Shown here: piece by piece, positions 6,983 through 21,053 of the stretch
Numbering within the stretch: the stretch's first letter is position 1
Layout of the letters: every line of letters starts with the position of its first letter
From: a virus
DNA: 22,423 nt
Reading direction: 5' to 3' (one strand)
Virus record (IMG/VR): IMGVR_UViG_3300001589_000213
Coordinates: 1-22,423 of that record
Program-made: the position numbers and the translations under genes
Notes under the pieces: model-generated
What the model was told of the DNA's origin: nothing
The model's input: only the letters and a program-made list of their open reading frames with translations
Database searches by the model: none

Positions 6983-7254
6983 CAACGAAAACACAAATAA
7001 AGAACCAAAGGAAACTTAAGCTAGAAAAGGAGGAGTCCAAGCACAGGAATGCCTTTAATCATAAAGTCCCTTCTTCCCCTTCGGAGGTTCGCGCTCTAAA
7101 GCGCCATGCTCAGTCGCTAATACATAACCACAGGATGCTGAGTTGCAGAATAAAAAGACTCAAGAGGCAGAGGGTGTCAATTAACCAGGAGCTAGATGAA
7201 ATCGCAAAATGCATGAGCTTAACTTACGAAAGGGGAAGTAGCTCAGCTGGATAG
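6979..7254 (+). CDS. Basic coiled-coil protein whose 3' end overlaps the tRNA gene
   Basis: 91 residues, ATGA overlap with the gene before; AAAGGA lies thirteen bases upstream. The protein is rich in Lys and Arg: TKTQIKNQRKLKLEKEESKH at the start and MLSCRIKRLKRQRVSINQEL near residue 54, with heptad-like spacing that suggests a coiled coil and perhaps nucleic acid binding. No family is recognised. The last eight codons (from GGGGAAG onward) lie inside the tRNA-Arg sequence, so its stop codon is in the D-loop of the tRNA. Either the end is a random extension or the tRNA was inserted into this gene. Confidence 0.65.
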   Translation: MTTKTQIKNQRKLKLEKEESKHRNAFNHKVPSSPSEVRALKRHAQSLIHNHRMLSCRIKRLKRQRVSINQELDEIAKCMSLTYERGSSSAG

Positions 7255-7308
7255 AGCATCGGTTTTCTAAACCGAGGGCCGCAGGTTCGAGTCCTGTCTT
7301 CCCTACCA
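7232..7308 (+). tRNA. tRNA-Arg(UCU)
   Basis: A full cloverleaf can be drawn. Acceptor GGGGAAG (7232-7238) pairs with CTTCCCT, with G1-U72 as a wobble. D-arm GCTC...GAGC. Anticodon stem TCGGT/ACCGA with loop TTTCTAA, giving anticodon UCU. A five-base variable loop GGGCC, T-arm GCAGG-TTCGAGT-CCTGT, and an encoded ACCA 3' end. It reads AGA and AGG codons, which make up most arginine codons in the neighbouring genes I checked (for example the three arginine codons among the first fifteen of the endonuclease VII ORF from its SRL onward). The endonuclease VII gene starts four bases after the CCA end. Confidence 0.93.
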
Positions 7309-10113: not shown

Positions 10114-10153
10114 CCCCTCTCGTGTTGGTCATAATACGAGGGGGGTTTTTTTT
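10114..10153 (+). terminator. Intrinsic terminator at the convergence of the two gene blocks
   Basis: CCCCTCTCGT (10114-10123) pairs with ACGAGGGGGG (10136-10145) with one wobble, followed by eight T. It serves plus-strand transcription. The last T's overlap the stop codon of the minus-strand gene ending at 10152. Read on the minus strand the hairpin is preceded by A's and has no T-run, so it is not a good terminator for the leftward operon. Confidence 0.9.
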
Positions 10154-13100
10154 ACCTAGAGAGCAGGAGTGCCGCTACGTCGTTAGTTATTATTTTCTTT
10201 CTCCTCATTTCATTAAACAAGGATCTATCTATGTGGGCGTTCATCTGTCTTAGTAGGTCCGCTCTGTCCGCCGCATTCAGATTCATCAACAAGAGGTCCT
10301 GGGCGCTTCTTCCGTATCTCTGGTTAGTGCGCCTTCTCTTATCTTCGGACTTGAATCGTTCCGCCTTCATTCTGTCTTCGGCTCCACCGCTATACAGGCC
10401 CCTGATTACGCCAATTTTCTCCGCCTTGCTCTTACCCTCCATTTGAGCGTCGTATTGCTCTTGGGTTGATTCCGTTGCGCCCTTCTTGAATGGCTCAAAG
10501 TCCATGCCTTTAGTTATTCTAAATATGTCGGCGCTTCTTACGCCCGCGCTTTTCATGAGATCGATTTTCTCATCCCTGCTATACCCGAACGAGTCGAGCC
10601 TACTGTAGGACTCTTCAATTCTATCGAAAGCAGACTTGGCATTCTCCACGGCTTCCACGTAGGACCTTTCGATCTGCTCTTCGGTCATCTTGCCTTCACT
10701 GAACTTATACTTGAAGTCAGTGCTGTAGTTGCCCCTGGCGTCAGAATATCTCTCAACGAAATCCTGGATTCTCCTCTTAGCCATTTGGTTGAAGTCAATC
10801 TTCGTGAACCTGGCACCGACCTGTCGAAGTAGAACTTCTGACATTGTGAAGTCACCAGTTCCATCTACCGAGCCCTGAAGGTTCTCCAGCTCTCGCATTA
10901 CACCTGGCTTGAATGTCTCAAAGATTACAGAACTTACCCGATCCTTGAAGGATTGAAATCCTTCCGCTGTAGATATTTTTTCACCGTAGATGTCTCTGTT
11001 GTCAACGGCACGCATTACGTTTTGATTAATGAAAGTACCTTCGCCCATTAGTTCCTCGGAGATCAGTCCAGAAAGGGTCTTGGTTGTGTCGTATTCATTC
11101 TCTTTGCCTTGCGAAGCTGCATCAATGACAGCTGAAGCAAACTGCGTAAGGGTTGCATGCGGGAAGAGGTAACTGGTCATCGCGAAAGTCCCTTTCTTAG
11201 TATCCTTGTCGATGGTAGCCATGAAGTCCTTGTCTCTCATGTAACTGAATCCGAAGAAAGCAAAGTCGTCCCTCTCTTGTGATCCATCCAAAGCTTCTCC
11301 TTGAACTCCTGGAACCTTCTCTACGCCCCTAGACAAGAATTCCTTCGCCCCTGCGGAGGCGGCAAGGATCCCCACTAGCATCCCAGATCTTTTTAGTCCT
11401 TCGTTTCGCACTGCATTTATGGCGGCGGCCCTCTGAGCTTCATTTGCTGGAAGCTCTATGTCGAACCTCTTAAAGAAACTAGCGCCGTGAATCATCTCTC
11501 CAGCAATCCTAGCCTGGTTCATTGTGTTCCTGGCTAGCTCAAGCGTAAATGTAACGAAAGGAGGCAGCAGTCCCCTCCTTGAAAGATACTTACCAAGTCT
11601 ACTTGTTCTTTCGTAGTTCTGATAGGTGTCGTTTGTGATGGAGGCAGCCATTCTTTTGACCTGACCCTCGTCCAAGTTTACGCCGTTCTTGACCAGCTTC
11701 TTTTTTATCATCCCCTGGTTGGACTTCCAAATGGCGTATCTTGTTGCGCTGTCGGTGACGCTGTAAAGCTTTCCCATTGTCTTGGTCATGCGCTCAGCAA
11801 GATTGCCTACCTTGCCGTTTCTTATGGCTGCAGCAACTTCATTGGACGCGATACTGGCGTTGCCAATGCCGTATTCATACATTTCATCTACCTCTGAAAC
11901 CAATTGCTTCCTGTAGGAAGCTTCTTGCTTCTTGGTTATCTTTCCTGCAACATTCCCAATGGCAGTTCCCTCGAGTTCGGACAGTGCAAGTCTAGCACCC
12001 CTGAAATAATCCTTGCTGAATATATTTACTCCGTTGGAAGCCGCCGAGATAGCTCCGCCGATTGCATTGACCGCATAGGATGGCGGATTGTATATAACCT
12101 TTACAGCTTTAGAGTAAGCGACCATGCTGCCGAAGGCTTGATTGACGAACCCAGCGGTTCCTTCTGCCATCATTTCGGAGAACTCCGACTCGTAAAGCTT
12201 GCTTACAGCATGCGCAGTTTCTGTCGGAATATAGAGCTGCCTTCCGTCTGAATCAATTCCCTTCATGCCTGGAAGGACCAATTCAGTGAAGCCAGGCTCC
12301 TTGCGAGTCCTTATTTGCTCTGTGCTCTTTAGACCGTTAACTACAGCAAGGTTGGACTCTATCTGGGCTATGTGCCTCCTGGAGTCCCTTAATCTGTATT
12401 TAGCCTGAGCTGCTGGCTTCTGTATGCCCGCAGTTACTTCACCCAGGAACGCTCTTTCGGCTGGGCCTGGTAAGTGCCCCTCTAGTTTCATCTCGAATCT
12501 GCCTGGTAGACTAGCTACAAGCGCCTTTTGAGACATCCTTTTATCCTTTGCTCGCATGCTATCGAGATGCTTGAAGTGCGCATCCACTTCTCCTTGCATC
12601 TTTTTGGCAACCTTATCGTCAGAGATGTCCTGACCAGCATCCTTGGCTTTTCTTTCAAGGCCAGAAAGCACTTCAGCCTTAGCTAAGGCCTCCTGCGCTT
12701 CCGTTGTAGTAAATTTTTTATCAGTGAATGCCTTGTAGGTAGCAGTATCATACTTTCTGTATCCCCGCTGTATCTCCTCCTGCATCCTCGTCATTAGGGA
12801 TTCTTTTTGAGCTTTCGGAAGAAGATCGAATTCATCGGTTTCATCGAGAATGTCGTAGAGATCGCCCATCGCCTTGATCTCAATATCTCTCATTGCATTG
12901 AGGTCTCCAGCAATAGGCTCCTTGGCCAGCTTGTCGGACATCACTCCCCCATCCATGAAATCGCCTATATCTTGCTTTAGATCTTCCCTGTCCAGGACAG
13001 CTTTTGTGATCTTGGCATCCAGTTTAGTGCTGATCGATTCAGCCCTCTGCATGTCGTTTTGAAATTTAAAGTAACCCTCTCTAGCTCCCTTGCCAATCTG

Positions 13101-13844
13101 CCTTGCTGGAGCTATATAATTGAGGCCCCGTATCAGTGCATTGCGGATGGGAGTTTCGGATTGAGATAGTTCGTTAGCGATGAACTCCCGCTGGAGTCTA
13201 TCCTTGGTGCTTGCGATCTGCCTTGTTGTTGCATCTTTACCCAGGATCGGAGAAAGGACACCCGCTACGGCATCTTCCGTTAGCTGATCAGTAGCTATGA
13301 GCTCATCAATCTGCTTGGCACTCTTACCAATCATTTTATGAGCGGTGCTGAAATATTTAGCGTCTATGCTTCCTAGGCCTCTGCCCATAAGACCGCCAGT
13401 TCCCATCGCCAGTAGGGTTCCCTTTGCGTCTACTTCGCCCGTATCAATGACGTCACCCAAAGCTCTTTCGCCACCAGCAAGAGCTGCCCCCTTGAGCATC
13501 TGGCTGGTAGCTGGGTTAAGGTTTACCCCTTTACCCTTTAGGTCCACCGTATTAGCTGCACCAGCTGCAAGTATTCTACCCAGGCTTAGGTCGGCGGATC
13601 CCTTGTCCTCAAAGCCCACTTGGGCTGCAGCGCTACCAATAGCTCCAGAGAGAAACCTGACTCCTGCACCCGCAAAGGGTATTCTCTTCTTGATGAATTG
13701 AGCGGCAATCTCTCCGCCTATACCGAAACTTATTTCAGTAGCAGCTGATCCAGCAATCTGCCCAGCACTAAGAGGAGCCCTGGTGGGAGCGCCCTCTGCC
13801 TCAAGTTCAGTTTCTTCTTCGGTGTCGATTTCTTCTGGGTCCAT
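10152..13844 (-). CDS. Large internal virion / polyvalent-type protein with LPD38-like region
   Basis: 1230 residues. The N-terminus is very acidic (DPEEIDTEEETELEAEGAP), followed by Gly/Ala-rich, weakly hydrophobic stretches (about residues 25-160: IAGSAATEISFGIGGEIAAQF, GAIGSAAAQVG). Residues 170-560 are long charged helices. Residues about 570-830 resemble the LPD38 domain of phage polyvalent proteins: VIYNPPSYAVNAIGGAISAA, then YSVTDSATRYAIWKSNQ, RMAASITNDTYQNYERTS, and LLPPFVTFTLELARNTMNQ. The rest is helical and charged. Proteins of this kind are thought to travel in the capsid and enter the cell with the DNA; a T7 gp16-like ejection role is inferred. No lysozyme or polymerase motif is seen. 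It starts by a TAATG overlap without SD and is the last gene of the leftward operon. Confidence 0.75.
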   Translation of the reverse strand: MDPEEIDTEEETELEAEGAPTRAPLSAGQIAGSAATEISFGIGGEIAAQFIKKRIPFAGAGVRFLSGAIGSAAAQVGFEDKGSADLSLGRILAAGAANTVDLKGKGVNLNPATSQMLKGAALAGGERALGDVIDTGEVDAKGTLLAMGTGGLMGRGLGSIDAKYFSTAHKMIGKSAKQIDELIATDQLTEDAVAGVLSPILGKDATTRQIASTKDRLQREFIANELSQSETPIRNALIRGLNYIAPARQIGKGAREGYFKFQNDMQRAESISTKLDAKITKAVLDREDLKQDIGDFMDGGVMSDKLAKEPIAGDLNAMRDIEIKAMGDLYDILDETDEFDLLPKAQKESLMTRMQEEIQRGYRKYDTATYKAFTDKKFTTTEAQEALAKAEVLSGLERKAKDAGQDISDDKVAKKMQGEVDAHFKHLDSMRAKDKRMSQKALVASLPGRFEMKLEGHLPGPAERAFLGEVTAGIQKPAAQAKYRLRDSRRHIAQIESNLAVVNGLKSTEQIRTRKEPGFTELVLPGMKGIDSDGRQLYIPTETAHAVSKLYESEFSEMMAEGTAGFVNQAFGSMVAYSKAVKVIYNPPSYAVNAIGGAISAASNGVNIFSKDYFRGARLALSELEGTAIGNVAGKITKKQEASYRKQLVSEVDEMYEYGIGNASIASNEVAAAIRNGKVGNLAERMTKTMGKLYSVTDSATRYAIWKSNQGMIKKKLVKNGVNLDEGQVKRMAASITNDTYQNYERTSRLGKYLSRRGLLPPFVTFTLELARNTMNQARIAGEMIHGASFFKRFDIELPANEAQRAAAINAVRNEGLKRSGMLVGILAASAGAKEFLSRGVEKVPGVQGEALDGSQERDDFAFFGFSYMRDKDFMATIDKDTKKGTFAMTSYLFPHATLTQFASAVIDAASQGKENEYDTTKTLSGLISEELMGEGTFINQNVMRAVDNRDIYGEKISTAEGFQSFKDRVSSVIFETFKPGVMRELENLQGSVDGTGDFTMSEVLLRQVGARFTKIDFNQMAKRRIQDFVERYSDARGNYSTDFKYKFSEGKMTEEQIERSYVEAVENAKSAFDRIEESYSRLDSFGYSRDEKIDLMKSAGVRSADIFRITKGMDFEPFKKGATESTQEQYDAQMEGKSKAEKIGVIRGLYSGGAEDRMKAERFKSEDKRRRTNQRYGRSAQDLLLMNLNAADRADLLRQMNAHIDRSLFNEMRRKKIITNDVAALLLSR

Positions 13845-15766
13845 TATGGGGTATTGGGAGTTTTAGCTGAAAATGGGTTATCGAGAAAATCGGCATTAGG
13901 AAGCAAAAACTTAAAGATCATTTCACGCCTTAAATCATCCTTCTCCTTGTCAGTCATTCCACTTCCGTCTTGACCCGTGTAGCCTTCTAGTAGCGCGTCA
14001 GCCTGAAGTTCCGCCTCTTCAAACTTGCTGGGGTCCTCTTTTTTCAGGGAATCTATTCTAGCATTGTCAAAGTCAATTTGCCTCTTTCTGTCGTCTTCTT
14101 CGTCCGCAATTTTATTCCCCGTCAGAATGTTAATCCCGTTGGCTTCGGCAACCTTCATCGCCCTACCAATTTCACCATTAGACGAATATCTGTCGTTGAA
14201 CTTTGCCATGTCGCGAAGGTCCGCCATGCTGGTTCCTTCGCCCCTGGCTTTTCTTCTATCGCGGTCGCTCGCTGCATCATTGAAATCTGGCCTTGCGTCA
14301 AGTCTAGCTTCACGATCAAGGGACGCCTGACTAAACGCACTTCCTGCAGCATCTCTGCTAGAGGTATCCTTGGGGCTCTCTCTCGATTTCAAGAATGAAT
14401 CACGGCTGTAGCCAGTCTCAGCGTTGAACGTAGTGTTCATGCCTTTAGCTAATTCCTCCGCTTGAGATATCTCATCTTTTGTAATTTCTGCGCCAGACTT
14501 CATCCTTTCAAGGAAGTTGGCTTGAGGGCTTCCCTGTTCTGGTTCCTGAGGGATCTGACCGCTTCGTGCAGCTACATTTTGAATGGCTCTTTCGTATGCC
14601 GATCGATTCCCTTGCAACTTCTGACCAGCTAAAGCGTTCATACTGCTGGCTGTTTCAGGGTCCGCAAACGCTACATTGCCAGATTGGTCAATGAAGGGAC
14701 GCATGCCTTCAGGTCTTCCAGCTGCGCCAGGGATGGTGCCTCCGTTTTCATTTGTCAATCCACCAGATATGAACGGAGCTCCAGATTCAACCATTTGACC
14801 CGCCAGAGAATCAAGCTGCTGTTGGGTTATTGGGGCGTTGGGTTGATTTTGGAACATGCCTATGTTCTGCCCATCAGGGGCCTGGTAGCTACCTATAATG
14901 TTGCCTTGAGGTGCTGCGCCCCCATTAAATGGAAGGGGTCCGCTGGGAGCCAATGCCTGCTGAATGTTGGGGGCCTGGCCCCCTTGAGCTGATTGATTTG
15001 CTTGAGCTTGTTGGACTGATTGAGGAGCAACTCCCTCTTGACTATCTAACCTGGCGTTAGTAGCATCAAATTGATTTGGGTTCATTGAGTTTAAGAACGA
15101 TACGCTCTCAGGGGCCGACATAGCTGCTTCTCCAGCAGCTTCCCTTCTTTCGTTCTCCTCAGACAATGTTCGCATGCCTTCGTTGTCGCCGTATCCGTCA
15201 CCGCCGCCATACACCGCTCTCCCTATAAGTCCGCCTAGAGCGTTCCCGCCCATTTCAGAGAGACCTCTGCCGTCGTCCCTCACGGCTCCTGTAATTAAAT
15301 CTGCAGCGGTATATAGTCCCGCAGGAGTCAGTAGGCTCCCTGCTTGAGCTAGCCTTGAACCTTTTGCCAAATTTCCAACTATTTGTGGAGCCTTGATTTT
15401 GTTGAGCTTGTCTGCAAATCCAGCTACCTTTTGAACAGGCTTTGAGCCTAGAATGCGACCTTCATTGCCAGCTAGTCTAGCAGTGTCATAAATTCCTTCA
15501 GCGCCGAGCAATGCATCTTGAGCCAATGTGGCGTCACCGCCTCTACCCGTTGGGGCATCACCGCGATCAATCTTGAACGGGTCTTTGCTATTGATTTCTA
15601 CCTCTCTTCCAGATTCAGGTAAAGTTGCTGTAACTTTACTGTCGTCACGTTCAACTCGTGAATCCGAAGCTGCTTCGTCACCTTTTTCCTTGGCTTCTCT
15701 CGCCAGCCTAATTAACCTTTGCTCTTCGGTTTCTTCTTCTTCGTTATTATTATTATTGTCTGCCAT
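13844..15766 (-). CDS. Acidic, Gly/Ala/Gln-rich putative internal virion protein
   Basis: 640 residues. No family is recognised. The N-terminus is NNNNN followed by a Glu-rich block (residues 4-15), then a charged helix to residue 30. Residues about 85-190 are Gly/Ala-rich with amphipathic or weakly hydrophobic helices (LLTPAGLYTAADLITGAV, GGNALGGLIGRAVYGGG), which could enter a membrane. Residues about 225-320 are Gln/Asn/Pro-rich (VQQAQANQSAQGGQAPNIQQ). The C-terminal half is charged and helical. The composition and the one-base overlap with the LPD38-like gene suggest the two proteins work together, as a second ejection or core protein. Two-part disordered and amphipathic layout is common in such proteins. 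The start at 15766 has no SD. Confidence 0.7.
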   Translation of the reverse strand: MADNNNNNEEEETEEQRLIRLAREAKEKGDEAASDSRVERDDSKVTATLPESGREVEINSKDPFKIDRGDAPTGRGGDATLAQDALLGAEGIYDTARLAGNEGRILGSKPVQKVAGFADKLNKIKAPQIVGNLAKGSRLAQAGSLLTPAGLYTAADLITGAVRDDGRGLSEMGGNALGGLIGRAVYGGGDGYGDNEGMRTLSEENERREAAGEAAMSAPESVSFLNSMNPNQFDATNARLDSQEGVAPQSVQQAQANQSAQGGQAPNIQQALAPSGPLPFNGGAAPQGNIIGSYQAPDGQNIGMFQNQPNAPITQQQLDSLAGQMVESGAPFISGGLTNENGGTIPGAAGRPEGMRPFIDQSGNVAFADPETASSMNALAGQKLQGNRSAYERAIQNVAARSGQIPQEPEQGSPQANFLERMKSGAEITKDEISQAEELAKGMNTTFNAETGYSRDSFLKSRESPKDTSSRDAAGSAFSQASLDREARLDARPDFNDAASDRDRRKARGEGTSMADLRDMAKFNDRYSSNGEIGRAMKVAEANGINILTGNKIADEEDDRKRQIDFDNARIDSLKKEDPSKFEEAELQADALLEGYTGQDGSGMTDKEKDDLRREMIFKFLLPNADFLDNPFSAKTPNTP

Positions 15767-15819: not shown

Positions 15820-16059
15820 TCACTCAAATAAGTCGACTTCACCAAGTACATCAATCCCTGAGTCTTGAATCGACGTATCCTGATCTATTTGATTCCTATT
15901 AGGCTGACGATAGTTATCGGTAGATATGTCGTATATACCACCTCTAGCATTTCCTCCAGAACTTGACCTACCTAACATCGACATACCTCCTCCACTGGAG
16001 GCTATAAAGTCTGGGATATCGTTAGCGCTAGTTATCTTTGGTTTGTTTCCGTTTGCCAT
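15820..16059 (-). CDS. Small protein between repeat protein and core-type genes, unknown function
   Basis: 79 residues. Its start overlaps the stop of the repeat-protein gene as TAATG, so it is probably read by reinitiation. It is polar and looks disordered: GGGMSMLGRSSSGGNARGGI in the middle, then STDNYRQPNRNQIDQDTSIQ, and an acidic end VLGEVDLFE. There is no membrane segment and no motif. Position just after the long fibre-like gene makes a small virion or fibre-assembly protein possible, but a guess. Confidence 0.65.
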   Translation of the reverse strand: MANGNKPKITSANDIPDFIASSGGGMSMLGRSSSGGNARGGIYDISTDNYRQPNRNQIDQDTSIQDSGIDVLGEVDLFE

Positions 16060-19000
16060 TATGGAGTGGGGATTAATGCAGTAAGAATGGTTTTCTTGTA
16101 ATATGTATTGCCGTTAATATCTGAGAAGGCTGGTCTTAGATCAACATCAAGGGTAAGCTTACTGTTAGCAGGATTACTTGGTCCTCCAGATATCTCCAGA
16201 ATAAATGGTTCATTACCATACATCCTTCTGCCATTTGCTACAACTTCTAGGCCATCGCCATCCGCAACGCCACTTATAGTTGCTTTAAGTGAACCAGCTG
16301 TAGTTACACTAGATTTTTGTACAAAACTAGGCCTTTTAGACGTGAACACAATGACCCCATTGGACGTAAATGTTCTCGTAATATTATTGCCAGAACCATT
16401 AGACGGTGTCACGCCAAGTATAGTTGTGTCAATCCTATATCCACGAAGTCCTCTAGTTACAGAAAACGGTGAGAAGTTATGAGCAATTCCACTCTCATAG
16501 GTTCTGGCCCAAGATGTTGGATTGTAAAGTCCAGTAGCTGCTCCACCTGCATCTCCATCATTAAAGGTAAAATCGCCCGCAACAATATCTGCTGAGGTTT
16601 GAAATATAACAGTTACTCTGGCTTCAACCTTAGCTTGAACTGGAGGCTTTAGGTGAAAGTTATAAAAATTAATGTTGGGGTTATTAACGCCCGATGGATC
16701 TATTACATCGCCACCTAGAGAAACAACTCCAGGGTAAGTAAAGTCAACCATCCTGTTATATTTATGCACAGTATTAGAATTACTGTGAACAATACTTTGT
16801 CCACTGTCATCCTGCAAAGTGGTAACAGCAATTGTTTTTAGACCCTCAAATTTTCCAGTAGTTCTTTCGATAACAGGCCCTACCGTTGAGCCTTCGGTGG
16901 CTAGGAAAGTTGTAGTAACTTTTATTACACCTTCGCTTTCATTGTTTTTTGATACAGACAATGTTCCAGCTTCTATCCAATTTGAAACCTTTGTTTTTAT
17001 ATCCCCCCCGTTGTCAATTTCCTCGGCACTTAAGTATAATCCAATAACAGGAGACCCCGCAGGAACGGTGTTAGCGGCACTTGCGGCAGTGCCAGCTACA
17101 CCACCTATTACTCCTGCTGTAAAATCTGAGGTGGAAAATGTTCTTTGTTCTATCCTCTTGAGTCCGTTTAAATCATAGCTCTCTGTAAATACTTCGTGAA
17201 ACTCGAAATTAAATACCCTGGTCTTTATTCCATCGAAATCACTTGTTTCTTCAGAAACAATAGATGACCCATTTGGCAGTGTGTCCGTCGCTTGGGGAGG
17301 GTTACTTGTTAAGATCCCCCTGACATCACCATCGGTTAAATCAAATGCTCTAACGGATATTTTCCGAAAGCCACTATTAAGTTCTCTCTGGACCGAGAGT
17401 ATACTTGGTTTTAAAAATGTATATCGTTCTGTAGGGATGCCTTCAACATTACTAATTTCCTCTTTGGCTAAGGAATAGCTGGATTTAGTTTTTCTTGATG
17501 AAGCAGGATTAAACCACTCCTCTACTATTGCCTTCTGAGATCCCACATTGTCAGTTGAGTCAGATAACTTAACATCGTTCTCCAAGAAAGTATATCGTTC
17601 TGTAGGTATGCCGCCAATATCTGATTGATCTTTACGGGCTAAGGAATAATTGGATTTAGTTTTTCTTGATGCAGCAGGCTTGAACCACTCTTCTGTTATA
17701 CTATTTTGACTTCCTACTTCATCTTCGGAGTCAGAAAGTTGCACGTCTTCCTTTAGGAATGTATAACGCTTTGTTGGTATTCCGTCTACATCGGATTCCT
17801 GCTCACTGGCGATTGAATATCCGCTTGGTGTAACAGGAGTGCCGTTAAACACCTCTTTGACAATAGCTAGTTGACTTCCTACTTTATCCTCAGTCTCAGA
17901 AAGAACCACGTTATTCTTGAGAAACGTATAACGCTCCGTTGGAATCCCGTTTACATTTGATTCTTCTTTGCGGGCTAAGGAGTAATTAGTTTTCGTCTTC
18001 CTTGATGCGGACGGCTTGAACCACTCTTCGTTAATGCTGTTCTGACTGCCCACTTCGTCTTCGGACTGAGAAAGCTGCACGTCCGCCTTTAGAAACCTAT
18101 ATTGAATCGTGGGTATTCCCGCAAAGTCAGACTTCCGCCTGTCTGCTTCTTGGTATCCAGATAGTGCTACATTAGCAACGTCTACTCCCGCAAAAGCATC
18201 ATTGGTAGGTTTGAACACTTCATTGGTTACTGCTAGTTGGCTGCCCACCCTGTCTTGAGAGACGGAGAGAACTACATTGTTTTTTAAGAACATATAACGC
18301 TCTGTGGGAATACCATCAACATCACTTATATCTTCTTTAGCTAAAGAGTAATTAGACTTTGCTTTCCTCGACGCTGCAGGTTTGAACCATTGTTCTGTTA
18401 TGGCTAGCTGGCTACCCACATTATCCTCGGTCTCAGATAATTGAACATCATCCTTTAGGAAGGTATAACGCTCCGTCGGGATGCCATCTACATCGGATGC
18501 GTCCTCCTTCGCTAAGGAGTAGTTGGTTTTTAATTTCCTCGCCGCTGTAGGCTTGAACCATTGTTCCGTAATTGCCTTCTCAGAACCTACGTTATCAGTT
18601 GATTCAGATAGTTGTACGTTATCTTTCAGGAATACGTAACTGATTGTGGGAATTCCCGCAAAGTCAGACTTCTCCCTGCTCGCCTCCGAATAACCAGATA
18701 GCGCAGTCCCACTTACATCTTTACCTACAATAGTATCACTGGTGGGCTTGAAAACCTGGTTGGTTACCGAAAGCTGTGAACCTATCCTGTCTTCCGAGAT
18801 AGAAAGAATTACATTATTTTTTAAGAAAGTAAAACTCCTCGTAGGAATGCCTTCAAAATCACTGGCGGCTTCCTTGGCCAGGGAATATCCAGTCTTCACA
18901 CTGCGATTAACGGCTCCAGAGGTCGCAACCAGAGATGGTTTAAACCATTGCTCTATAACCGCCTTCTGAGATCCTACGTTGTCTATGGAATTGGAAAGTT

Positions 19001-21053
19001 TAACGTCGTCCTTAAGGAAAGTATATCTTTCCGTGGGAATGCCATCAACATCTGATTCTTCTTCACGGGCCAGGGAGTAAAGGCTTTTTGTTTTCCTTGA
19101 TGCGGACGGGTTGAACCATTCTTCGGTTATGGCCAGTTGACTCCCTACTTTGTCCTCAGAAACAGAAAGAGCTACATTATTTTTTAAAAAAGTATATCGT
19201 TCGGTGGGGATACCGCCAATATCTGATTCTTCCTTGCGGGCTAAGGAATAGTTGGCCTTGATTTTTCTTGATGCGGCAGGCTTAAACCACTCTTCGATAA
19301 TGCCGTTCTGGCTTCCTACCTCGTCTTCGGATTGAGAAATCTGAACGTCATCCTTGAGGAATGTATAACGCTCCGTAGGAATACCATCTACGTTCGATTC
19401 TTCCGTTCGGGCTAAGGAATAGTTAGTTTTTGCTTTCCTCGTGGATGCGGGCTTGAACCATTCTTCGGTTATGGCCAGTTGACTTCCTACTTTATCTTCG
19501 GACTCTGAGAGCTGAACATCATCCTTGAGGAATGTAAATCTTTTAGTAGGTATGCCATCTACCTCGGACACTTCCGTCCGAGCTACAGAATACCCACTCT
19601 CGGTTGGATCAGAGGCAGGATTGAAAACCTCAGTAATAATTGATAGTTGAGAACCAACTTTATCTTCTGTTCGAGAAAGCTCTACATTGTCTTTTAGAAA
19701 AGTATATCGTTCCGTAGGAATGCCCTGGACATTTGATTCTTCTTTGCGGGCTAAGGAATAAGTAGTTTTTATTTTCCTTGATGCGGACGGCTTAAACCAC
19801 TCTTCGGTAATGCTATTTTGACTTCCTACTTCGTCCTCGGACTGGGACAGTTGAACGTCTTCCTTGAGGAATCTGTATTCAATGGTCTTAATACCCTCGA
19901 AGTCCGACGTGTTCTGACTTGCTAGGCTGTATCCTGATACGGTTTTATCCGAGGAAGGGTTAAACCATTGCTGCGAAATAGAAAGTTGGCTTCCCACCTT
20001 GTCTTCGGATTGAGACAACTGAACATTATTTTTGAGAAATGTAAATCGTTTAGTCGAAATACCATCAACATTGGATTCCTGTTCGCTGGCTATAGAGTAT
20101 CCACTTGGTGTGCTAGGCGTTCCGTTGAACACCTCTTTTACAATAGCCAACTGACCACCGACCTTATCTTCTGTTTCGGACAGGGTTACATTATTCTTTA
20201 AAAAAGTAAACTGTCGGGTAGGTATTCCATCTACGTTGCTAACCTGCTCATTGGCGATACTGTAACCAGATGGAGTAGAGGGAGTTCCGTTAAACACTTC
20301 TTTGACGAGGGATAACTGGCTACCCACTTTGTCCTCTGTCTCAGAAAGAACTACATTATTTTTAAGAAAAGTAAACCGTCTGGTCGGGATACCATCCACA
20401 TTGGATTCCTGCTCGTTAGCTATTGAGTAACCAGATGGAGTAGATGGAGTGCTGGCGAAAGTTTCTTTTACAATGGACAGTTGACTACCTACCTTGTCCT
20501 CTGTTTCGGATATGGTTCCTGCCTGTATATATACTTCAGTTACTTCCCTATAACTATCTGTATCGCTAACTTCATAATTAGCTAAAATACAAGTGACTGC
20601 TGTTTCAGTATCAATCTGTGACGTAATAGAAGTTGTGCCTACTGTCTTTTGAAAATTAGTTCCAGCCTTTGCAATACTTGTTCTTTTTACGCGCCGTAAA
20701 CCATTCTCTATGTAATTAACGGTATCATCTTTTACTTGGACAAAGCTAGCTCCCAGTGTTTGATACACTAGGGTGACAATATATTGTTCTTGCTGTGTGC
20801 TGGACTGCACAGATACAAGGTTCATATCTGCGTAGGCTTCCCCCGTTCGAGGTTGAAGCCCATCTATGTTCATCGCTGCTCCCTGAAATGAACCAAAGGA
20901 AGGAAAGATGCGAGACTTATTGGCACTATACCAGTCTTCACGACTGTTCATAGTCGTGCAATTGACGGTCAGTTGATACCGACCGTTTTGAAACTGCTCA
21001 ACGGACGGAGTCCCGACCAGCTTGAGCCTGCTAGTTCTGTGAGATACAGCCAT
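16059..21053 (-). CDS. Giant modular repeat protein, likely tail fibre or virion appendage
   Basis: 1664 residues, the longest gene in the window. Residues 1-180 are non-repetitive, beta-rich, with an early IFPSFGSFQG and DGLQPRTGEAYADMNL, perhaps the virion-anchoring part. Residues 181-1218 hold 18 tandem modules of 55-65 residues. The consensus is LSxSEDxVGSQ, then a WF or VF with (K/N)P, then YSLA or YSIA, then S(D/N)VDGIPTERYTFLK(D/N)(D/N)VQ. Residues 1219 to about 1430 carry about three decayed modules. The C-terminus (about 1430-1664) is non-repetitive and beta-rich (VEARVTVIFQTSA, TLDVDLRPAFSDINGNTYYK), a possible receptor-binding tip. Cys is nearly absent. The repeats suggest a rod of stacked beta domains, probably trimeric as in many fibres. 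Assignment as a fibre is inferred from length, modularity and the virion-type neighbours. No chaperone or enzyme domain is seen. Confidence 0.75.
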   Translation of the reverse strand: MAVSHRTSRLKLVGTPSVEQFQNGRYQLTVNCTTMNSREDWYSANKSRIFPSFGSFQGAAMNIDGLQPRTGEAYADMNLVSVQSSTQQEQYIVTLVYQTLGASFVQVKDDTVNYIENGLRRVKRTSIAKAGTNFQKTVGTTSITSQIDTETAVTCILANYEVSDTDSYREVTEVYIQAGTISETEDKVGSQLSIVKETFASTPSTPSGYSIANEQESNVDGIPTRRFTFLKNNVVLSETEDKVGSQLSLVKEVFNGTPSTPSGYSIANEQVSNVDGIPTRQFTFLKNNVTLSETEDKVGGQLAIVKEVFNGTPSTPSGYSIASEQESNVDGISTKRFTFLKNNVQLSQSEDKVGSQLSISQQWFNPSSDKTVSGYSLASQNTSDFEGIKTIEYRFLKEDVQLSQSEDEVGSQNSITEEWFKPSASRKIKTTYSLARKEESNVQGIPTERYTFLKDNVELSRTEDKVGSQLSIITEVFNPASDPTESGYSVARTEVSEVDGIPTKRFTFLKDDVQLSESEDKVGSQLAITEEWFKPASTRKAKTNYSLARTEESNVDGIPTERYTFLKDDVQISQSEDEVGSQNGIIEEWFKPAASRKIKANYSLARKEESDIGGIPTERYTFLKNNVALSVSEDKVGSQLAITEEWFNPSASRKTKSLYSLAREEESDVDGIPTERYTFLKDDVKLSNSIDNVGSQKAVIEQWFKPSLVATSGAVNRSVKTGYSLAKEAASDFEGIPTRSFTFLKNNVILSISEDRIGSQLSVTNQVFKPTSDTIVGKDVSGTALSGYSEASREKSDFAGIPTISYVFLKDNVQLSESTDNVGSEKAITEQWFKPTAARKLKTNYSLAKEDASDVDGIPTERYTFLKDDVQLSETEDNVGSQLAITEQWFKPAASRKAKSNYSLAKEDISDVDGIPTERYMFLKNNVVLSVSQDRVGSQLAVTNEVFKPTNDAFAGVDVANVALSGYQEADRRKSDFAGIPTIQYRFLKADVQLSQSEDEVGSQNSINEEWFKPSASRKTKTNYSLARKEESNVNGIPTERYTFLKNNVVLSETEDKVGSQLAIVKEVFNGTPVTPSGYSIASEQESDVDGIPTKRYTFLKEDVQLSDSEDEVGSQNSITEEWFKPAASRKTKSNYSLARKDQSDIGGIPTERYTFLENDVKLSDSTDNVGSQKAIVEEWFNPASSRKTKSSYSLAKEEISNVEGIPTERYTFLKPSILSVQRELNSGFRKISVRAFDLTDGDVRGILTSNPPQATDTLPNGSSIVSEETSDFDGIKTRVFNFEFHEVFTESYDLNGLKRIEQRTFSTSDFTAGVIGGVAGTAASAANTVPAGSPVIGLYLSAEEIDNGGDIKTKVSNWIEAGTLSVSKNNESEGVIKVTTTFLATEGSTVGPVIERTTGKFEGLKTIAVTTLQDDSGQSIVHSNSNTVHKYNRMVDFTYPGVVSLGGDVIDPSGVNNPNINFYNFHLKPPVQAKVEARVTVIFQTSADIVAGDFTFNDGDAGGAATGLYNPTSWARTYESGIAHNFSPFSVTRGLRGYRIDTTILGVTPSNGSGNNITRTFTSNGVIVFTSKRPSFVQKSSVTTAGSLKATISGVADGDGLEVVANGRRMYGNEPFILEISGGPSNPANSKLTLDVDLRPAFSDINGNTYYKKTILTALIPTP
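17400..20513 (-). repeat. 18 in-frame tandem coding repeats of 165-195 bp
   Basis: The period is 165, 168, 171, 192 or 195 bp, always a multiple of three. Four module classes can be seen. A: 55 residues with STPSGYSI (modules 1, 2, 3 and 16, and module 6 in part). B: 57 residues with WFKPxASRKxK.NYSLA (5, 7, 8, 9, 12, 13, 15, 17, and 18 at 56). C: 65 residues with VFKPT and an extra eight-residue insert before SGY (11 and 14). D: one 64-residue variant (10). Module 4 is a 56-residue hybrid. Modules 4-5 look like 14-15, and 10-11 like 13-14, which points to block duplication. Confidence 0.9.

Follow-up and report, generated by a model that had tools for sequence, protein, structure and literature searches.

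A phage protein family with a variable number of beta-strand modules, a candidate distal tail protein

What does a virus do with a protein that carries 18 tandem modules of one kind? The question is posed by an IMG/VR contig (virus record IMGVR_UViG_3300001589_000213; the whole stretch of 22,423 nucleotides is called the window here), in which a single gene, recognized from its open reading frame, its translation and its IMG/VR family, encodes a 1664-aa modular protein on the minus strand (16059-21053). We refer to this protein as P0001. With a probability of roughly 0.6, we read it as a short-tailed phage's distal tail protein, with the modules serving as an adjustable stalk and the C-terminal end as a swappable tip.

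Results

Translation of the minus strand gives an ATG start and no internal stops for P0001, and the plus strand has stops throughout the same interval. The conserved N-terminal domain (residues 1-181; 20511-21053, minus strand), aligned in 13 rows, is 67-75% identical to those of four relatives. It is followed by the module array (residues 182-1218; 17400-20510, minus strand), delimited by a module HMM, pairwise comparison and a five-module structural model. Beyond the array lie a partial diverged module (residues 1256-1283; 17205-17288, minus strand; module HMM E 1.9e-6) and a last diverged module (residues 1361-1416; 16806-16973, minus strand; E 1e-9), the latter aligning with the single-module region of short relatives. 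The C-terminal domain, of type B (residues 1417-1664; 16062-16805, minus strand), was placed by its alignment with those of the relatives L015, L004, L026, L028 and L048. G+C across the gene (window 16001-21000) is 0.40-0.45 vs 0.46-0.505 in the rest of the window, which may reflect acquisition or the composition of the modules.

Eighteen tandem modules had been predicted, and the array does consist of 18 unbroken units with a period of 55-65 aa, starting at residues 182, 237, 292, 347, 403, 460, 516, 573, 630, 687, 751, 816, 873, 930, 995, 1052, 1107 and 1164. The module HMM matches each of them (E 3e-24 to 1e-33) together with the two diverged copies, although these E-values are not independent because the profile was partly trained on P0001 modules. 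Protein identity across all 153 module pairs is 42-89% (mean 59%), which far exceeds chance. At the DNA level the modules are 60% identical on average and 83% at most, and residues that are identical between modules use the same codon in only 39% of cases. With synonymous sites largely scrambled and the protein pattern kept, we conclude that the array is not a recent tandem duplication. Calling the module core invariant, as the original prediction did, was too strong: the motif SED.VGSQ varies as STDNVGSE, SIDNVGSQ and SQDRVGSQ, and modules 3 and 4 have IST and IKT, respectively, in place of the IPT of the core.

That the modules match no recognized fibre repeat agrees with Pfam and PHROG profile searches, which give none across them. 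Pfam has no match to P0001 above its curated cut-off, enzyme families included; among PHROG matches, no single stretch of the protein passes alone, and relatives are without such matches. We therefore attribute the weak matches to accumulation over the repeats, and phrog_36108, phrog_20511, Dam and Ntox6 were rejected as candidates. We also rejected a homology between the modules and N-terminal residues 108-182, the hhalign match (99%) having come from over-extended module rows; it vanished once rows reaching into the N-terminal domain were removed. Sequence families of the PDB likewise leave the modules uncovered. Judged by its sequence, the beta-strand module is previously undescribed.

Monomer structure prediction, which had been proposed for the modules, gave a confident five-module AlphaFold model (residues 343-629 of the window protein; mean pLDDT 93.5, pTM 0.77). 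Each modelled module has four strands of ~10 residues, and in some modules the middle loop contains a short helix. Structural comparison with the PDB yielded no clear match for the module model, whose best Z is 4.2 among mixed folds, and Foldseek against the PDB found nothing at E<=0.001 for this model or for that of L015. Single modules align with parts of Fn3 and Ig domains at Z ~4, the same score as for unrelated folds, kinase N-lobes among them. Arrays of Ig-like or Fn3 domains are built from seven-stranded sandwiches of ~90 aa; the modules of P0001 measure 55-65 aa and have four predicted strands.

The model of the short relative L015 (479 aa, 26 rows) has a mean pLDDT of 77.8, reaching ~90 or more across most of residues 120-240. 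Against BFVD it matches A0A1B1IWJ7 at 8.9e-6, an entry that carries no name. Residues 102-181 align, as one domain, with tail-hub domains at Z 4.3-5.4, below the trusted Z of 8; the hubs include the PVC1 spike, VgrG1, the AFP spike, Ur-lambda gpJ, the HFTV1 tail and the Chi tail tip, and the best-scoring alignment, to the first hub domain of the PVC1 spike, has Z 5.4 and covers 77 residues at 3.0 A. We treat this resemblance as a lead only, because such Z values can reflect a common arrangement. No sequence match to gp27/VgrG-type hubs was found, and these hubs belong to contractile or long-tailed systems. Lambda gpJ consists of a hub, beta domains and a distal fibre, and P0001 as read here would likewise combine a hub-like domain, beta domains and a distal part.

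Searches with the whole protein and with its N-terminal domain recovered ~25 distinct relatives in IMG/VR, all on viral contigs. The family has no member among 50,697 phage records searched by tblastn with the window, L025, L028 and L048 proteins, and a pattern scan of genome contigs found no relative. Full-length relatives share a layout in which a conserved N-terminal domain of ~182 aa precedes the modules, and the protein closes with a C-terminal domain of one of two types, A (ending like DGTTYYEVITWSV) or B (ending like DGTTYYKKTI). On the tree of N-terminal domains, the C-terminal type switches at least 3 times on well-supported branches.

Module number across the family runs from about 1 to about 25, a range to be read with the caution that short-read assembly may lose arrays of near-identical DNA. 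The highest count, obtained with two module profiles, is 25 in L025 (1895 aa). Short relatives have no modules by these two profiles, but the region after their N-terminal domain matches a broader module profile; we counted them as having one module because of this match and the alignment with the last diverged module of the window protein. There are two module subtypes, often in blocks inside one protein. Sister pairs on the N-terminal tree differ by whole modules: for L019 and L023, DNA identity is 92% in the first 710 nt of the gene and 86% in the last ~1290 nt, and the middles, of 1978 and 328 nt, differ by 1650 nt, or ten 55-aa modules. The pair L024/L025 has the same layout, with ends 91% and 82% identical.

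Placement of P0001 in a virion gene block, part of the original prediction, is borne out by collinear relatives, in which the family lies in the tail block. The window itself, which spans small genes (98, 96 and 233 aa) to a 1230-aa protein and then a replication block on the other strand, has no capsid or portal gene. Near-complete relatives begin at the head end with terminase, portal, scaffold, capsid, a 102-aa gene and a ~330-aa adaptor-like gene, and continue with small genes, often a fibre-like gene (c7), the P0001 family and ejection-type proteins. PHROG profiles support the capsid, terminase and fibre-like gene, the portal was called by similarity to annotated portals, and the adaptor-like and ejection-type roles are presumed from position and general knowledge. 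Downstream of P0001 in the window, two genes for proteins of 640 and 1230 aa (10152-15766, minus strand) are putatively of the ejection type, judging by their position, and clusters c29 and c6 follow the family in relatives.

Several other features of these contigs were recorded. On the far side of P0001 (21069-21770, minus strand) lies a gene for a basic protein of 233 aa, rich in Lys, Ala and Gly, with histone-H1-like repeats (GRGAKAGAKATGRGAKAAG); the protein is conserved among the relatives as cluster c28 and perhaps binds DNA. A tRNA-Arg gene (anticodon TCT; 7232-7308, plus strand) lies among the early genes. The 70,525-base contig G011 (L034-L037) carries two DnaB-type ORFs, two copies of c68 and a 2474-aa ORF, and may combine two phage genomes.

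An indication of a tail role comes from what occupies the position of P0001 in other phages. Phage C75C1 has the same head genes, adaptor and large downstream protein as P0001 phages, and no relative of P0001. The corresponding position is occupied by a match to PHROG 578, 'head closure Hc3' (1e-10), with a fibre gene after it. The PHROG 578 class includes P22 gp10, and we call its members nozzles; gene position alone does not separate nozzle, hub and fibre. The profile matches the C75C1 gene and two IMG/VR genes, and gives no match to P0001 or its relatives. After the fibre gene, C75C1 (L040, record 38751 across the origin to 7576) encodes a 2769-aa protein, which sits in the block that holds the 640-aa protein in P0001 phages.

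Among loci fetched by another conserved gene, this slot held a P0001-type protein in 9 and a nozzle in 3. A second set was fetched by c4, a gene of 131 aa (MTPELLAMLGGG...; L002:5273-5665) found at 500 or more IMG/VR loci and common to phages with quite different tail types. Its 31 loci with at least 6 kb downstream comprise 16 with a nozzle, 4 with a third type of protein, 4 with a P0001-type protein and 7 with none of these; by eye, five of the seven carry a T7 gp12-like gene, and the other two have no comparable tail block downstream. The third protein is unrelated, ~425 aa long and starts MGFGQRANKFNELGKV (L083:8922-10223, L107:6146-7405, L075:15124-16386); it has no PHROG match. Across the loci fetched by these two conserved genes, nozzle, P0001 family and third protein never occur two together. 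The P0001 family thus resembles P22 gp10-class nozzles in its slot between small genes and ejection-type proteins and in mutual exclusivity with them. It differs in having a modular array, and neither tblastn nor profile comparison shows sequence similarity between the two.

Such strict alternation between P0001 and nozzle genes at a single slot argues against P0001 being a head decoration, an internal virion protein, or a secreted enzyme or adhesin instead of a tail component. Its downstream neighbours are probable internal proteins, as such a role might lead one to expect, but no enzyme family reached the curated cut-off, and we regard a place outside the tail as most improbable. Replacement of the nozzle, together with the regular module domains of the model, could also suggest that the modules stack as a ring-like tube, lengthening the tail channel so that module number sets tail length. 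However, the largest ejection-type protein has ~1140-1360 aa whether a relative has 1 or 20 modules. Ejection-type proteins need not act as rulers, which limits this argument, and we hold the tube to be very unlikely. The idea of a tail-length ruler was itself rejected, because ejection-type protein sizes do not track module number.

An ordinary side tail fibre or spike is a more serious competitor. Another protein would then supply the conduit, and nozzle and fibre would have been exchanged as one cassette. A conserved N-terminus, a repetitive middle and a swapped C-terminus are the typical fibre pattern, and between sister phages the nozzle is replaced along with the fibre gene that follows it. 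Yet the relatives have no large universal tail-region gene besides P0001 other than the adaptor-like and ejection-type genes, and many of them already have c7 as a separate fibre-like gene. We consider a side fibre doubtful.

Discussion

Taken together, the conserved N-terminus, length-variable array, swapped C-terminus and exclusive tail slot suggest that P0001 is a distal tail protein with an adjustable stalk, in a phage that is probably short-tailed. On this reading the N-terminal domain would dock on the tail, with the adaptor as the likely docking site. The beta-module array would serve as a spacer or stalk whose length can be adjusted, and the exchangeable C-terminal domain would be the tip, which probably contacts the receptor. 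Gain and loss of whole modules would set the reach of the tip. P0001 would be present in the virion and may take over part of the nozzle's job. A stronger version holds that these phages have a new class of short tail, lacking the usual propeller nozzle, in which a hub-like N-terminal domain is fused to a rod of as many as ~25 beta modules with a swappable tip, the rod growing or shrinking by whole modules; this we consider unlikely.

Adjustable reach has a precedent in Periscope Proteins of bacterial surfaces, in which the copy number of a domain array alters how far an end domain projects (Whelan et al. 2021, PMC8201768). The P0001 family resembles them in having tandem folded domains whose number differs between close relatives (L019/L023, L024/L025). 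It differs in being encoded by a viral gene in a tail block, and not as a bacterial surface protein. Additionally, Periscope Proteins carry an N-terminal ligand-binding domain, whereas the N-terminal end of P0001 is conserved and its C-terminal end swapped. The Periscope screen used repeats of >50 residues with at least 80% identity (PMC8201768), a similarity that the P0001 modules, at a mean of 59% in protein and no more than 83% in DNA, fall short of. Because its repeats are not near-identical in DNA, we do not count P0001 as a member.

The spread of module number among relatives suggests that these phages alter tail reach by whole modules. If our reading is correct, module copy number would be the means by which phages adjust how far a tail protein reaches, much as bacteria do with surface adhesins. 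It would also mean that a large group of uncultivated phages has swapped the usual nozzle cassette for a design unrelated to it. Given the absence of the family from the phage records searched, such tails would be invisible to present annotation.
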